Shown here: piece after piece, positions 4,837-13,466 of the stretch | Position numbering within the stretch: position 1 is the stretch's first letter | Layout of the letters: each line of letters begins with the position of its first letter | Source: SAR324 cluster bacterium | Lineage (GTDB): Bacteria > SAR324 > NAC60-12 | Direction: 5' to 3' | DNA: 64,000 nucleotides | Assembly: GCA_015231825.1 (NCBI GenBank) | Contig: JADGAV010000001.1 | Span: forward strand, 124,001-188,000 | Notes under the pieces: generated by a model | What the model was told of the DNA's origin: nothing | The model's input: only the letters and a program-made list of their open reading frames with translations | Database searches by the model: none | Program-made: the position numbers and the translations under genes

Positions 4837-5250
4837 ATGGCAGGCCTTATCAATACTAAATTAACAACGCTGCTGGAAAAAACTTTGGATTTCAGAAGTC
4901 AAAGGCACGACCTTCTGGCATCGAATGTTGCCAACAAAGACACCCCGGGATACCACGCTCAGGACCTGGTGTTCGAAAAAAATCTGGAAAAAGCGCTGCA
5001 TGCGGATAAACCTGGTGAGTTACGGACCACCAACCCTCTGCATATGGATGGCAATGATACTCCACCGATGGAATTGGTTCAGGCCAAACGAATCACCAGT
5101 TCTGCCCCTTTTGTGGGATTTGATGGCAATACGGTTGATTTGGACAGAGAGATGGCAAAAATTGCCGAGAATCAATTGATGTATAGTGCCGCAACACGGA
5201 TGATTTCCAGCCAGTTCAGCAAGCTTAAAACTGTAATTTCAGAAAGTTGA
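4837..5250 (+). CDS. flgB: Flagellar basal-body rod protein FlgB
   Basis: 137 residues, the usual FlgB length. FlgB forms part of the proximal rod of the flagellar basal body in the periplasm and is exported by the flagellar type III apparatus, so it has no signal peptide. The N-terminal rod-protein motif is clear (SNVANKDTPGY, residues 29-39) and the C-terminal heptad-like segment (EMAKIAENQLMYSAATRM) is the D0 helix. It starts the flgB-flgC-fliE module, divergent from the membrane/TPR gene with 55 bases between. AGGAAA lies close upstream of ATG. Confidence 0.96.
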   Translation: MAGLINTKLTTLLEKTLDFRSQRHDLLASNVANKDTPGYHAQDLVFEKNLEKALHADKPGELRTTNPLHMDGNDTPPMELVQAKRITSSAPFVGFDGNTVDLDREMAKIAENQLMYSAATRMISSQFSKLKTVISES

Positions 5251-5373: not shown

Positions 5374-5823
5374 ATGGGTTTTCTTTCATCTTCAAGCGTC
5401 AGTGTTTCGGGAATGACAGCACAGCGACATCGTGTGACGACCATTTCTGAAAATATTGCAAATGCCGAAACTACCCGCACCCCTCAAGGCGGTCCCTATC
5501 GCCGTCGCGAAGTAATCTTTGCTGCAGTTTCCAATGATCGAACATTTGAGCAGGAATTGCTGGAACAAGATCGGTCGCTGTCCGATGCAACAGAAGTAAA
5601 AGTTGTGGGAATTGTACAGGATAATCGCTCCCCGGTTTTAAAATACGATCCGGGACATCCCGATGCAAACGAAGAAGGGTACGTGGAAATGCCCAACATC
5701 AATACAATGGAAGAAATGGCTAATTTGATGGTCGCGTCTCGTTCCTATGAAGCGAACGTGGCTGCATTCAATGCCTCAAAGGGAATGGCACAAGCCGCAT
5801 TGGACATTGGTCGGTCCTCATAA
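5374..5823 (+). CDS. flgC: Flagellar basal-body rod protein FlgC
   Basis: 149 residues, normal for FlgC, a second proximal rod protein. The N-terminal rod motif is ISENIANAETTRTPQGGPY (residues 26-44); the C-terminal segment has the family pattern NTMEEMANLMVASRSYEANVAA followed by a short amphipathic helix. GGGAAGGATG upstream is a good ribosome binding site. The gene follows flgB after an unusually long 123-base gap holding a hairpin, and precedes two FliE-type genes, the order expected for rod assembly on the MS ring. Confidence 0.96.
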   Translation: MGFLSSSSVSVSGMTAQRHRVTTISENIANAETTRTPQGGPYRRREVIFAAVSNDRTFEQELLEQDRSLSDATEVKVVGIVQDNRSPVLKYDPGHPDANEEGYVEMPNINTMEEMANLMVASRSYEANVAAFNASKGMAQAALDIGRSS

Positions 5824-5854: not shown

Positions 5855-6157
5855 ATGAAAAATATTTCGATAGAAAACCAGCTGAATGCGCTCTACGATA
5901 AAGCAAAGGTAAAAAAAACTCAGAACGAAAGTCCTGCAGATTCAAGTGCCTTTGATGCCACACTTAAATCAAGCATTGAACGAATGAATGAAATCTCTAA
6001 CAAAGCAGATTCTGCCTTAAAATCGCTTTCCAGTACCAATAAGGAAGAATTTAAAGAAGTCATAGACCAGGCCGGTTCTATTCATCGCAAATTGATGGAA
6101 GAACAGCACAATTTAGCGGCCCTCTACCAAAAGATTAAAATTGATACAAAATCCTGA
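5855..6157 (+). CDS. FliE-like small protein (putative FliE paralogue)
   Basis: 100 residues, mostly helical and without a signal peptide or membrane segment. It is not annotated easily by motif, but its layout follows FliE: a disordered N-terminus, then F(D)ATLKSSIERMNEISNKAD (compare FliE F..ML..AL..VN..Q..AD), then an acidic turn and a final helix with a NLAALYQKIKI ending that matches KLTSAYEEIIRM of the true FliE directly downstream. The conserved VRNKL block itself is lost. It sits between flgC and fliE with a strong GGGGAGA ribosome binding site, 31 and 27 bases from its neighbours, so it is surely made with the rod. I infer a diverged FliE copy or an MS-ring/rod adapter partner. Confidence 0.6.
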   Translation: MKNISIENQLNALYDKAKVKKTQNESPADSSAFDATLKSSIERMNEISNKADSALKSLSSTNKEEFKEVIDQAGSIHRKLMEEQHNLAALYQKIKIDTKS

Positions 6158-6184
6158 TTTAAACCCACATCCTGAGGAAGGTAT

Positions 6185-6490
6185 ATGACTGTTCGATTCA
6201 ATAATAATGTCGCGCCCAATCTCACACTGCAGCGCCAACTGCAGGAAACGGCCAAAACAGAAGCAAAAACCGGAAACATTGCCTCAACTTTTGAAAAAAT
6301 CCTGAGTGAGACCAATCGTCTTCAAAAAGAGTCGGAAGCGAAAAAAGTCGAATTCCTGACCACAGATAAAAAGGATCTGCATGGTACCCTCATTGCGGGA
6401 GAAAAAGCAGATGTCTCTCTGCGCCTGTTGCTTAAAGTGCGCAACAAATTGACATCAGCCTATGAAGAAATAATTCGAATGCAGGTTTGA
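6185..6490 (+). CDS. fliE: Flagellar hook-basal body complex protein FliE
   Basis: 101 residues, normal for FliE, which links the FliF MS ring to the proximal rod and is among the first substrates of flagellar export. The diagnostic C-terminus is intact (VRNKLTSAYEEIIRMQV, residues 85-101), and the preceding ...DLHGTLIAGEKADVSLRLLL segment matches the family DLHxVMIAxEKAxxS pattern. A strong AGGAAGG site precedes the ATG. It is the last gene before an intrinsic terminator, so flgB-flgC-fliE-like-fliE form one transcript separate from fliF. Confidence 0.93.
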   Translation: MTVRFNNNVAPNLTLQRQLQETAKTEAKTGNIASTFEKILSETNRLQKESEAKKVEFLTTDKKDLHGTLIAGEKADVSLRLLLKVRNKLTSAYEEIIRMQV

Positions 6491-6548: not shown

Positions 6549-6588
6549 AGCGATTTGATTTCTATCGAGATCAAATCGCTTTTTTTTT
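6549..6588 (+). terminator. Intrinsic terminator after fliE
   Basis: A perfect 11-bp stem, AGCGATTTGAT (6549-6559) paired with ATCAAATCGCT (6570-6580), with a 10-base loop and eight Ts directly after it (6581-6588). It lies 59 bases past fliE and 169 bases before fliF. It should end the flgB-fliE transcript, so fliF needs its own promoter in 6589-6756, where I could not identify a clear sigma-28, sigma-54 or sigma-70 site. Confidence 0.93.
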
Positions 6589-6756: not shown

Positions 6757-8370
6757 ATGGCAGAAGCCAGTGCAATTCAGGACATTCGACTACAATTTCA
6801 AAATTTTTTCGGCAATCTCAGTGTTGGAAAACGGATTACTCTTCTGGCAGTATTGGGGGTCATTCTGGCAGGAATGACCACGTTGATTGTTCTGACGAGT
6901 CGGGATACCTGGGCTCCTGTATATACAAATCTTGAACCTGAAGATGCCGCTGTCATTGTAGAAAAACTGCAGGAAAATCAGATCCCTTATTTGCTTGCTC
7001 CCGGAGGAAGAACGGTAATGGTTCCCCCCAATATGAGAGATCAGGCCCGATTAATCCTGGCAAAAGAAAAGGTATTGCCCGGCAGTGGGGTCGGGTTTCT
7101 CGATCTTTTTGGAAAACCAGAACTGGGTGAGACAGAATTTCAGCAAAATGTGAAGTTTAGAGCAGCGCAGGAAGGAGAGTTGGCCCGTTTGATCACCCGT
7201 ATCGGTGACATCCGTTCCGCAAAAGTGTCCCTCGCTCTTCCCAAAAAGTCTGTTTTTAGCGATACTCAGGAAAAAGCAACAGCCGCTGTTTCTTTGGAGA
7301 CTTCAGAAAGTTTGAGTAAGGGTCAGATCGATACAGTAATTCATTTGGTCGCCAGTGCTGTTGAGGGACTCGATACCCGATTTGTGAGGGTCACTGATCA
7401 AAATGGAAGTCTGCTCAGCAAAGGATTTTCGGAGGATTCACTTTCAGGAGCCATGAATGAAAATTATAGCTACAAACGGCGTTTTGAAGGCGAGTTGGAA
7501 ACAAAGATCCTCAGCCAGCTGGAACCGGTTGTGGGCAATGAACGGGTTGAGGTCAGGGTTTTTGCGGACATCGAATTCGATCGGAAAACGATAAGGGAAG
7601 AATTGGTAGACCCTGATCAGGTGGTGGTCATAAGTGAGCAGAGTATCAATGAAAATTCTACCGGTTCGCGTTCTATTCCGGTTGGTCCCGCAGGAGTTTC
7701 TTCCAACCTGCCGGAGGCTACGGGACGTGAAGCAGCCACAGTCTCAGATTTCGGCAAACAGCATACGACCCGGAACAGTGAAGTAAGCCGTCAGAGCATT
7801 GTAAAAGAACCTGCTGCAGGCCGCATTAATCGAATCTCAGTTTCGGTGCTATTGGATGACAAACACCCCGCTATTTTTGATGCTGATGGTAATTTTCAGG
7901 GTCGAGATAATGTGCCATGGAGCACAGAACAAAAAGACCAGATTTCTGATCTGGTAAAAGCAGCAATTGGTTATCAGAACAATGAGACTCGCCAGGATAT
8001 TGTAACCGTGGTCAACCTGGGATTTGGAAAACCGGTTGAAGAAGATCTCCAGTCTCAAATTGAAGAAAATGAACGTCTTCGAGATTTTATCCTAAACGTA
8101 GTCCGGTATGTTGCCCTTGGGGTTGCAATTCTTGCTTTGATCCTCCTGGTCATCCGGCCGATGGTCCAGCGCCTGAGTGCCAAACCTGCCGATCTTGATC
8201 TGCTGATGGGCCTTCCGGCAACCATTGGTGAACTTGAAGGGGAAGAACTGGAAATTCCGACTGAACGTGAGGCTGGAATTCCTCCGCGAGACAAGATTGT
8301 TGATATTGCCCGTCAAGATCCACTTAAAACTGCTTCCATGGTACGCGCCTGGTTGAAAGAAAAGAAATAA
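6757..8370 (+). CDS. fliF: Flagellar M-ring protein FliF
   Basis: 537 residues, within the usual range. FliF forms the MS ring in the inner membrane, on which the rod and the C-ring are built. Membrane helix 1 is at about residues 28-46 and helix 2 at about 445-467; between them lie the YscJ/FliF ring-building motifs, including LEPEDAAVIVEKLQ and GSGVGFLDLFGKPELGxTEF. The short cytoplasmic C-terminus (KIVDIARQDPLKTASMVRAWL) is the FliG-binding motif, so a FliG must exist although its gene is not next door. The gene begins a second transcript after the terminator at 6549 and leads into fliH 12 bases later. Confidence 0.97.
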   Translation: MAEASAIQDIRLQFQNFFGNLSVGKRITLLAVLGVILAGMTTLIVLTSRDTWAPVYTNLEPEDAAVIVEKLQENQIPYLLAPGGRTVMVPPNMRDQARLILAKEKVLPGSGVGFLDLFGKPELGETEFQQNVKFRAAQEGELARLITRIGDIRSAKVSLALPKKSVFSDTQEKATAAVSLETSESLSKGQIDTVIHLVASAVEGLDTRFVRVTDQNGSLLSKGFSEDSLSGAMNENYSYKRRFEGELETKILSQLEPVVGNERVEVRVFADIEFDRKTIREELVDPDQVVVISEQSINENSTGSRSIPVGPAGVSSNLPEATGREAATVSDFGKQHTTRNSEVSRQSIVKEPAAGRINRISVSVLLDDKHPAIFDADGNFQGRDNVPWSTEQKDQISDLVKAAIGYQNNETRQDIVTVVNLGFGKPVEEDLQSQIEENERLRDFILNVVRYVALGVAILALILLVIRPMVQRLSAKPADLDLLMGLPATIGELEGEELEIPTEREAGIPPRDKIVDIARQDPLKTASMVRAWLKEKK

Positions 8371-10973: not shown

Positions 10974-13466
10974 ATGGCGAATGCTTCCACAGATATACTT
11001 TGGCAAGTTGAAAATAGTGATCAGGCTGCAGAGAAGGCATTGAAACTCTATGAAAAACTGGAAGAGCAATGGGCGAGTATTGGGATAAATATTCTTGGCA
11101 AAGAAAACAAATTGGTCAAATCGGAAGATCCGAAAACTTTAAATTTCGATTTGTTCAACCGACTCAATGAAATCCGTAAAAAACACTACAACCGGTTAAA
11201 CCAGAAGAAAGATGGATCCAGTCCCAGCTATGCCCAGACTTTTTCTTGGTTGGCGCAGGCATTTGAACACAATGAAGGCCGACCTCCAAAACAGGATCAG
11301 GAATTTCAAAAATGTCTGGATCAAAAAGAACCATTTTCGTTCGATGTTTTGAAACGTTCTATCAAAGACCGCATAGATCAGTCAACAGATCAGCATATTG
11401 CAAAAGGACTGAATTTGTTTTTAAAAAAACTGGAAGATGGAGAATTTCAGCATTTTTCTGAATTGCTGGAAAGCATAGAGCAGTTCAACCAGAAGCAGGC
11501 TCTTTTCAGTTTTCCACATATGCCGACTGTGCTGCTCTCCATGATGGAAAAAATTCTGCTTGGTTCTGAACAGCATCTCAAAGAAATCTATTTTGCATTG
11601 CTGCGAAAAATTGTTGATTCCGCTCAGGTGATGCAAACCCTGCAAAACTCCAGGCTCTCGCATACGGGAGTTTACCGCGACCCGGACTCCATCAAAGATT
11701 CGGGATTAAGAGAAAAACGCCAAAAACCTGACGAGGACGAATGTATTGATTATACGGATTTCGAAAACACGCGAGTTTATCTCAACAGCATCAGTATCGT
11801 ATTGGCGGAATGTTTGACGAAAGAGTTTCGCGAAAAGACTTTCAAAGCCTGCAGCGAAAAAGGCCAGGTCCCTTCAATGATCAACGTCCTGGATCACTTG
11901 ATGATGGGGACTGCTGCAAGAAATGAACTGCTGGAGAATGAAATTAAAATGCTGGTTTCCAAAGAAGGTAAGGACGAAGCAACTGCAAAAAAATGGGCGA
12001 AACGACGACTCAAACTTTTAGTCCAGAAAAAATTGGATGCCAATAAAAAGGAAATTTTTGAAAATATTAAAAGTGAAAAGGATCTTCGCAGAGCACTGAA
12101 GAATTTTAATGAGGAATATTATTCGTCTTTGAAACTATATCTCTACATGCTGCGGCGATATCAGTTTTTAAAGAGCTTTATTGTCGGCCTTTACGCGCAT
12201 CCCCCTGAGATTGATCCGGAGATTACCGATTTGATTTTTATTACGGCTTTTCTGGCCAATAAACAGAAAAAGCCAGGATGGGACTTGATTTCAATGCTTC
12301 TCAATGCCCAGGTTGATTCACAGAAAAAAAAGACGTCTCAAGAGCAGGATGTCCAATTTGAATCCGAGTTGACGCAGATAAGTGAGCAGCATAATTCCAA
12401 GCAAAAAATAATGTCTCTGATGGTCCCTTTTCTGAACGAATTGGTGCCCCTTGAAATTGACGACATGGTCAAATTTCTTTCGAAGATGTTTATTTTGGCT
12501 GCTCCAGCTGAAAAAACCAAAGAAGTCGAAAGCCGTTTCAGTGCCACAGCCGTTAATTCCATTGACGATCCTCTTATTCAGACCATCATGTCTTTGTCCG
12601 AAACAACGGAGGAAATGATTTCAAATCCGGACCGTGAACCGCAGAAATTTGAGGTGCGGGTAGAAGAAGAAACGATAGATGAAGAAAACGGAAATATTGT
12701 GATGGCTGTTTCCCAGTTCGTTCGCGAACAATGCGTAAAAATTATTGGGAATTCCAATGTCGTCGAAACAGATGAAGACCAGCAGGAGACGGTATTTAAA
12801 AGAGTTCAAAAAAACTGCCATGCTGAGGCCAAAGCATTGAGAAGGCATTTGCATCCGATGAAATTGGATGAGAATTTTGCTTATTCGAAAATGATGACTT
12901 CCTCTCAACCCGCTTTGACTCCGGCAGATCAGTATAAAGGGCACATCATCCCCTTGAAATATCAAAATGATTTAAGAGCCTGTCTCAGAATTTATTTTGA
13001 TGAACTCGGTGCTGATCTGGTGAAGCGAGTCTATTTAGAAAACCCGAGGGGAGATACGGTTTGTGATGAAGTAGTCGCACTGCAGATTCCAAATGAGTAC
13101 TCAATCAAGTTTGGATTTCAAAAACATGTGCGCTACAGTCTGATTTTAGGGTTGATAAATTTTGATGATGACGAAAAACATGCGGTTTTGCGACTGTACA
13201 TGGTATTGAGCGGGCACAGGCCTCATGACAAAAAGCCCATCGAAGGCTACTGGATTGAAAAAAATGGCGAAAGTAAAAAAGTGATTATGATCAGTATCAC
13301 CGAGAAATTTAAGCAGCAGGCATTGGTTCTTCAGGTCCTCGGTGATGAATTGGCCCGGACTTGTTCTCAGACTGCATGGAATACTGATTCTGTTCAGAAG
13401 ATTCTGAAATCAGCTCAGGCGCGACAAAGGAATATCAGTAAAACACTAAAAGAGAGGGGCGGATGA
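10974..13466 (+). CDS. Large soluble protein of unknown function
   Basis: 830 residues, no signal peptide, no membrane segment, and no domain that I recognise. It is strongly helical and charged, with Lys/Glu-rich stretches at about residues 315-385 and a Gln/Lys-rich region near 445-475. An acidic linker (VRVEEETIDEEN, near 560) separates the helical body from a more globular C-terminal domain (about 650-825) that looks like mixed alpha/beta. It follows fliI on the same strand after 190 bases with its own likely start, and precedes a GNAT gene. A role in the flagellum is possible from position only. A 475-residue protein at 38393 has a similar character but no clear sequence match. Confidence 0.85.
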   Translation: MANASTDILWQVENSDQAAEKALKLYEKLEEQWASIGINILGKENKLVKSEDPKTLNFDLFNRLNEIRKKHYNRLNQKKDGSSPSYAQTFSWLAQAFEHNEGRPPKQDQEFQKCLDQKEPFSFDVLKRSIKDRIDQSTDQHIAKGLNLFLKKLEDGEFQHFSELLESIEQFNQKQALFSFPHMPTVLLSMMEKILLGSEQHLKEIYFALLRKIVDSAQVMQTLQNSRLSHTGVYRDPDSIKDSGLREKRQKPDEDECIDYTDFENTRVYLNSISIVLAECLTKEFREKTFKACSEKGQVPSMINVLDHLMMGTAARNELLENEIKMLVSKEGKDEATAKKWAKRRLKLLVQKKLDANKKEIFENIKSEKDLRRALKNFNEEYYSSLKLYLYMLRRYQFLKSFIVGLYAHPPEIDPEITDLIFITAFLANKQKKPGWDLISMLLNAQVDSQKKKTSQEQDVQFESELTQISEQHNSKQKIMSLMVPFLNELVPLEIDDMVKFLSKMFILAAPAEKTKEVESRFSATAVNSIDDPLIQTIMSLSETTEEMISNPDREPQKFEVRVEEETIDEENGNIVMAVSQFVREQCVKIIGNSNVVETDEDQQETVFKRVQKNCHAEAKALRRHLHPMKLDENFAYSKMMTSSQPALTPADQYKGHIIPLKYQNDLRACLRIYFDELGADLVKRVYLENPRGDTVCDEVVALQIPNEYSIKFGFQKHVRYSLILGLINFDDDEKHAVLRLYMVLSGHRPHDKKPIEGYWIEKNGESKKVIMISITEKFKQQALVLQVLGDELARTCSQTAWNTDSVQKILKSAQARQRNISKTLKERGG

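Follow-up and report, generated by a model that had tools for sequence, protein, structure and literature searches.

A diverged FliE-like protein encoded between flgC and fliE in SAR324 cluster bacteria

The flagellar rod genes of the window

FliE is regarded as a core component of the flagellum, present in a single copy and the only link between export gate, MS ring and rod. Its counterpart in the injectisome is the inner-rod protein SctI/PrgJ. Salmonella FliE is described as a substrate of the flagellar type III apparatus that sits in six copies at the rod base on FliP and FliR, and the six sites are described as non-equivalent, five being provided by FliP and one by FliR (PMC12403130). The first helix (alpha1) is reported to bind the MS-ring wall and helices alpha2 and alpha3 to bind FliP, FliR, FlgB and FlgC (PMC8546590; PMC12403130).

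The stretch of DNA analysed here (the window, 64,000 nucleotides) belongs to a SAR324 cluster bacterium with a 5.8-Mb genome (contig JADGAV010000001.1, positions 124,001 to 188,000). It carries a four-gene run, flgB-flgC-X-fliE, followed by a hairpin, fliF, and then fliH and fliI-like genes (Table 1). X is our name for the 100-aa protein encoded by the third gene. The sequence-only reading of this DNA had placed two small neighbouring proteins between flgC and a terminator, and both open reading frames were confirmed on the plus strand. The spacing is 31 bases from flgC to X and 27 bases from X to fliE. X thus has the early rod and ring gene context that is expected of FliE.

Table 1. Features of the rod and ring gene region (window coordinates)
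Feature	Coordinates	Strand	Description
flgB	4837..5250	+	Proximal rod protein, 137 aa; opens the four-gene run
flgC	5374..5823	+	Proximal rod protein, 149 aa; above the Pfam cut-off for Flg_bbr_C (50.7 bits) as well as Flg_bb_rod (27.6 bits)
X	5855..6157	+	Diverged FliE-like paralogue, 100 aa; X profile finds FliE in other phyla; same slot in relatives
fliE (canonical)	6185..6490	+	101 aa; matches PF02049, TIGR00205 and PDB FliE chains; has VRNKL-AYEEI-RMQV
Intrinsic-terminator-like hairpin, 3' of fliE	6549..6580	+	14 pairs, loop of 4, T run; consensus scan only
fliF	6757..8370	+	MS-ring protein, 537 aa; first gene past the hairpin; Pfam YscJ_FliF 172.6 bits, YscJ_FliF_C 118.4 bits

The canonical FliE scores 79.6 bits with PF02049 (E 1.9e-22) and 74.8 bits with TIGR00205 (cut-off 30). 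Both Pfam matches of the flgB product are weak (Flg_bb_rod 20.5 bits, cut-off 20.7; Flg_bbr_C 18.8 bits, cut-off 23), and its identity also rests on its place before flgC and on matching FlgB proteins in 40 or more relatives. Five terminator-like sites were found in the stretch, compared to 2.4 +/- 1.7 in shuffled sequences; the hairpin behind fliE is the longest and the sole one on the plus strand. A promoter scan gave no signal (three sites, 3.1 expected). Directly after the fliI-like gene there is an 830-aa open reading frame (10974-13466) with no Pfam match above cut-off (best E 0.11), possibly a lineage-specific gene of the flagellar cluster.

Relationship of X to FliE

By curated families, X is not an ordinary FliE. 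It scores 19.1 bits with PF02049 (E 1.5e-3), under the cut-off of 22.4, and the best Pfam match of X alone is COG3_N (E 4.3e-4), also below cut-off, with FliE ranking second. NCBIfam gave no TIGR00205 match at E<=10; its matches were two unrelated families of low significance, the best being GanS. The rod domains Flg_bb_rod and Flg_bbr_C were not matched in Pfam at E<=10. Among 16 X proteins searched against Pfam, FliE was the commonest family (10/16 at E<=1, best E 7.7e-4) and Pex19 the next (five proteins). In profile-profile alignment by hhalign, 22 X rows scored 26.0 with 47 SAR324 FliE rows, compared to at most 18.0 in 200 shuffles and to 10.7 with the alignment reversed; with all 49 FliE rows the score was 31.7 (probability 74%). 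X proteins of a second SAR324 family (f2) scored 25.4 on their own (shuffle maximum 19.5). The 12 rows from the window's own family (f1) scored 20.9, a thin margin over the shuffle maximum of 20.3.

Stronger evidence came from a profile (A1) built from 16 of the 22 X rows with no FliE included. In 77 genomes of one other phylum it found 53 places in 51 genomes at E<=0.01 (best E 1.6e-11), and 52 of these are PF02049 FliE proteins above cut-off, matched mostly over positions 1-93 of the 99 in the model. A second phylum (151 genomes) gave 26 places in 25 genomes (best E 5.4e-7), all of them Pfam FliE above cut-off. Over the 228 genomes, 78 of 79 places were thus FliE. A1 recovered 50 of the 54 genomes with FliE above cut-off in the first phylum and 25 of 86 in the second. 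Three further phyla (4, 1 and 17 genomes) gave no A1 match, and the controls were silent there too. In the PDB, A1 matched 28 sequences at E<=10, none of which is FliE.

The part of X that carries this likeness was located with FliE test sets chosen by Pfam and not by X (40 distinct sequences from 60 loci in the two other phyla, sequences already seen being dropped). At E<=0.01 the full X profile matched 21/21 and 16/19 of these FliE proteins, 26 of 47 SAR324 FliE proteins and none of 1985 decoy open reading frames. A profile of residues 1-61 still matched 21/21 and 5/19, one of the 47 SAR324 proteins and no decoys, and the C half of X matched no FliE in the same three sets. These N-half matches, and the lack of C-half matches, indicate that X is a FliE relative whose recognizable part is alpha1 plus alpha2. 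By profile evidence, homology over the first ~61 residues is well supported. The proposal that X is a diverged FliE and that both proteins have the FliE layout was supported by the HMM-HMM comparison and by the FliE proteins that X finds in other phyla. The profile searches did not place X in an unrelated family, despite COG3_N being the top Pfam match of the single protein.

The C-terminal half of X is different. The window FliE ends with VRNKLTSAYEEIIRMQV and X ends with EEQHNLAALYQKIKIDTKS; VRNKL-AYEEI-RMQV is replaced in X by EQHNLAALYQKI and a polar tail. The earlier claim that only the second protein keeps the signature VRNKL-AYEEI-RM is correct. With a C-terminal matrix (ungapped scoring, z>3), 0/17 X proteins and 37/37 SAR324 FliE proteins were positive. 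Salmonella FliE residues A95, V99 and Q103 are described as tied to FliP contact and secretion (PMC8546590). In the window FliE they align with A92, I96 and Q100 (chain 7bin_K). The joint alignment of X and FliE puts L90 and I94 of X at A92 and I96, a differing tail at Q100, and Q-H-N in place of the R-N-K of VRNKL. The pattern L-x-x-L-Y-x-x-I (L87, L90, Y91, I94) is retained in X rows (L 15/16, L 15/16, Y 14/16, hydrophobic 16/16), and since this hydrophobic pattern is kept, the C-terminal region of X likely forms a helix. AlphaFold models of low confidence give X (3 rows; mean pLDDT 68.2, pTM 0.41) helices at 6-22, 27-60 and 64-98 and FliE (2 rows; mean pLDDT 66) helices at 13-29, 32-59 and 65-100, which would be a three-helix plan common to both. 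Foldseek with the X model yielded nothing from the PDB at E<=0.001, and the best 50 entries listed include no FliE. VIA-align (2 rows) listed generic helical bundles, with no FliE among the matches listed.

A division of FliE features between the two proteins was considered as a phylum-wide rule, in which X keeps the N half and FliE the C half. The C part holds in all rows. An alpha1 resembling that of FliE in the first foreign phylum (z>3) was found in 6/17 X, 1/37 SAR324 FliE and 0/19 FliE proteins of the second foreign phylum; by this scoring the alpha1 motif is not general to FliE, and strong likeness is confined to the genera nearest the window. An alpha2-start matrix gave, for X and FliE respectively, 18.2 and 10.0 bits in the window, 12.2 and 0.2 in G003, 24.2 and 14.9 in G004, 23.6 and 10.1 in G005, and 9.0 and 9.1 in G007; in f2 the alpha2 start looks more ancestral in FliE than in X. 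The N part of the rule thus holds only near the window, is even in G007 and is reversed in f2, and the rule was rejected. The N-terminal part of SAR324 FliE itself matches other phyla poorly, and its C-terminal helix is strongly conserved in the window and its relatives.

Distribution and maintenance of X in SAR324

We surveyed 52 SAR324 genomes in four families (f1, the window's family, to f4). The named relatives of X are from SAR324 cluster bacteria (JADGAT010000023.1, 70% identical; JANQHV010000415.1, 67%). By profile, X was found in the flgC-fliE gap of 23/52 genomes (f1 12/31, f2 10/10, f3 1/10, f4 0/1). Sixteen of these 23 are rows that built the profile and five are near-copies of G001; the two independent ones are G035 (E 1.0e-7) and G042 (the sole f3 match, E 7.4e-5). 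The profile matched 26 genomes altogether; three matches lie outside the gap, including the FliE of the f4 genome. In 42 genomes the three genes flgB, flgC and fliE share a contig; by position, 29 of these have a gap protein, including 9/9 of f3 and f4. The distance to fliE in 29 relatives ranges from 78 bases to overlapping starts.

An orthologous relation of the f3 and f4 slot proteins to X was not upheld by sequence. Those of f3 scored 15.1 with FliE (shuffle maximum 21.7) and 30.6 with X of f1 and f2 (shuffle maximum 30.3, n=100), and in the f4 genome the X profile matches FliE instead. By position they are probable X orthologues. These proteins (L098-L106) have 105-148 aa, start with M-[STA]-x-I, carry a central F-x-x-x-L in most rows and have no FliE-like C-terminal half.

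The 13 genomes without a gap protein form one clade (local support 0.999; FastTree, FlgB+FlgC+FliE), which points to a single loss of X on this tree (13 tips). The clade corresponds to genera g3 and g7 (19 genomes, several incomplete), in which FliE is above cut-off in 16/19 and FliF is present in 17/19; their flgC-fliE spacing is 35 to ~225 bases (14 measurable genomes). The survey of relatives for the same pair showed it in f2 and part of f1. It is missing in g3 and g7, and homology of the f3/f4 slot proteins is weak. X is not generally absent from close relatives with flagellar genes, but the g3/g7 clade, which mostly keeps FliE and FliF, indicates that it is dispensable for some flagella of the group. 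The idea that losing X goes together with a displaced fliF was rejected: fliF lies elsewhere in the X-less clade, but it is also away from fliE in X-bearing genomes (G005, G007, G039). In three X-less genomes (G006, G011, G022; L066, L071, L082) flgB-flgC-fliE is followed by an aspartyl-tRNA synthetase-like gene (by eye), with fliF on another contig.

In the two other phyla (77 and 151 genomes) no second Pfam FliE match was found beside FliE. Among their 60 Pfam FliE loci, FlgC lies upstream on the same strand in 32, directly adjacent in 28. The remaining four have a gap without an open reading frame (two) or with a small one (two), none X-like by profile. Up to now the X-fliE tandem pair is confined to SAR324 in a comparison that covered just two other flagellated phyla. 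Three foreign genomes (G084 and G133 of one phylum, G248 of the other) each have a pair of FliE proteins that exceed the Pfam threshold and lie on separate contigs, which may reflect two flagellar systems or mixed bins. At one locus (L231, 722-1269, reverse strand) two small open reading frames between flgC and fliE are toxin-antitoxin-like by eye and not X-like by profile. No paper on a second FliE stood among the top matches listed in the literature searches, which is a weak negative.

The dN/dS ratio of X in the G003/G010 pair was 0.05 (dS 1.24), with 0.03 for FlgB and 0.07 for FlgC. Three pairs of genus g2 gave 0.11, 0.07 and 0.29 (the last from a very close pair, dS 0.03), and the f2 pair G033/G036 gave 0.19 for X and 0.18 for FliE; the remaining pairs were saturated. 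Intact X frames were present in 10/10 f2 genomes and in 12 of f1 (contig ends truncate two of them or nearly do so). Identity of X compared to FliE was 70% vs 59% (window and G003), 57% vs 62% (window and G004) and 56-65% vs 67-77% (three f3 pairs), and X is neither consistently slower nor faster than FliE in change. Judged from the coding sequences, X is under purifying selection and the gene is maintained.

Possible roles at the rod base and comparison with known systems

Taken as sequence evidence, these results identify X as a diverged paralogue of FliE, encoded in tandem with it and kept in the lineage, neither an artefact nor an ordinary FliE. It is set outside FliE proper because the PF02049 and TIGR00205 cut-offs are not reached and the C-terminal signature is lacking. 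The reading that we favour, and hold to be somewhat better than an even chance, is that X works with FliE as an adapter at the rod base. As part of this explanation, X would have been a neighbour of FliE in the flgBC-X-fliE run already before the split of f1 and f2, and have stayed there. X, like FliE, would pass early through the flagellar type III export apparatus and become part of the rod base, inside the MS ring. FliE would retain the tasks of its C-terminal helix, i.e., the contacts with FliP, FliR and FlgB through which the export gate is opened and the rod begun. X would add or replace contacts made by the N-terminal part, to the inner wall of the FliF ring and laterally to FliE/FlgB. 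The adapter between rod and ring would in that case consist of two proteins. What X keeps corresponds to the part of Salmonella FliE that contacts the ring, together with half of its D0 core, and FliE keeps what the gate contacts need. By this analogy, the simplest reading of X would be a further adapter subunit in this joint. Against it stands the X-less clade: since FliE and FliF are mostly kept there, the joint can be built without X. A hetero-oligomeric FliE ring is also conceivable, although we consider it rather unlikely. X would occupy one or a few fixed sites (e.g., FliR-side or FlgB-facing) and FliE the rest, and the symmetry mismatch of rod and ring would be handled by two specialized proteins.

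X could instead be a helper of FliE that is not part of the finished rod, an escort or cap for export, which would hold on to FliE or to the FliPQR gate at an early stage and then be lost; its FliE-like N half would be used and the altered C-terminal helix would bar polymerizing. The position of the gene directly before fliE in the relatives (at most 78 bases away) fits such a role, as do the missing profile signal of the C half and the replacement of the residues by which Salmonella FliE touches FliP/FliR (L90 and I94 in X for A92 and I96). It is an unlikely explanation nonetheless, since X keeps the L-x-x-L-Y-x-x-I of the last helix, as for a D0-like coiled coil, and Salmonella FliE is described as assembling without a cap or dedicated chaperone (PMC12403130). 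Less likely still, X might form a rod layer of its own at the FliE/FlgB or FlgB/FlgC boundary and lengthen the proximal rod. Its gene lies among rod genes and it has a FliE-like helical core, but with 100 aa it has no additional outer domain, and other rod layers require matched faces above and below.

A generic coiled-coil protein unrelated to FliE, matching it by composition and helix periodicity, could account for the sub-cut-off Pfam matches to COG3_N, Pex19 and FAM184, for the many unrelated helical bundles in fold searches and for hhalign probabilities of only 60-74%; with 78 of 79 foreign A1 places being FliE, clean decoys, and lower scores of shuffled and reversed profiles, this reading is very improbable and appears close to refuted. 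That X is a functionless, decaying fliE duplicate, as its loss in one clade, its diverged C-terminal half and the barely recognizable f3/f4 slot proteins might suggest, is hardly credible because it is contradicted by the purifying selection (dN/dS ratios of 0.05 to 0.19 apart from the 0.29 of the very close pair) and the intact frames.

If X and FliE share the rod base as proposed, X being kept in two families and lost in one clade that mostly keeps flagellar genes, the group would offer a natural comparison of a one-protein with a two-protein joint. The pair may also help to assign the functions of FliE to its parts, the N half being recognizable in X and the C half in FliE. Among known systems, no SctI family was present in the Pfam and NCBIfam matches of X. 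FlgB and FlgC are co-encoded with X, which is also a small helical axial-type protein, but X has no rod-domain match. The closest described protein is FliE (PF02049, TIGR00205). X is like FliE in size, in the three-helix plan of low-confidence models, in the first ~61 residues and in its place beside flgBC and fliE; it differs by an unrecognizable C half, by scores below the curated cut-offs, and by existing alongside a normal FliE.
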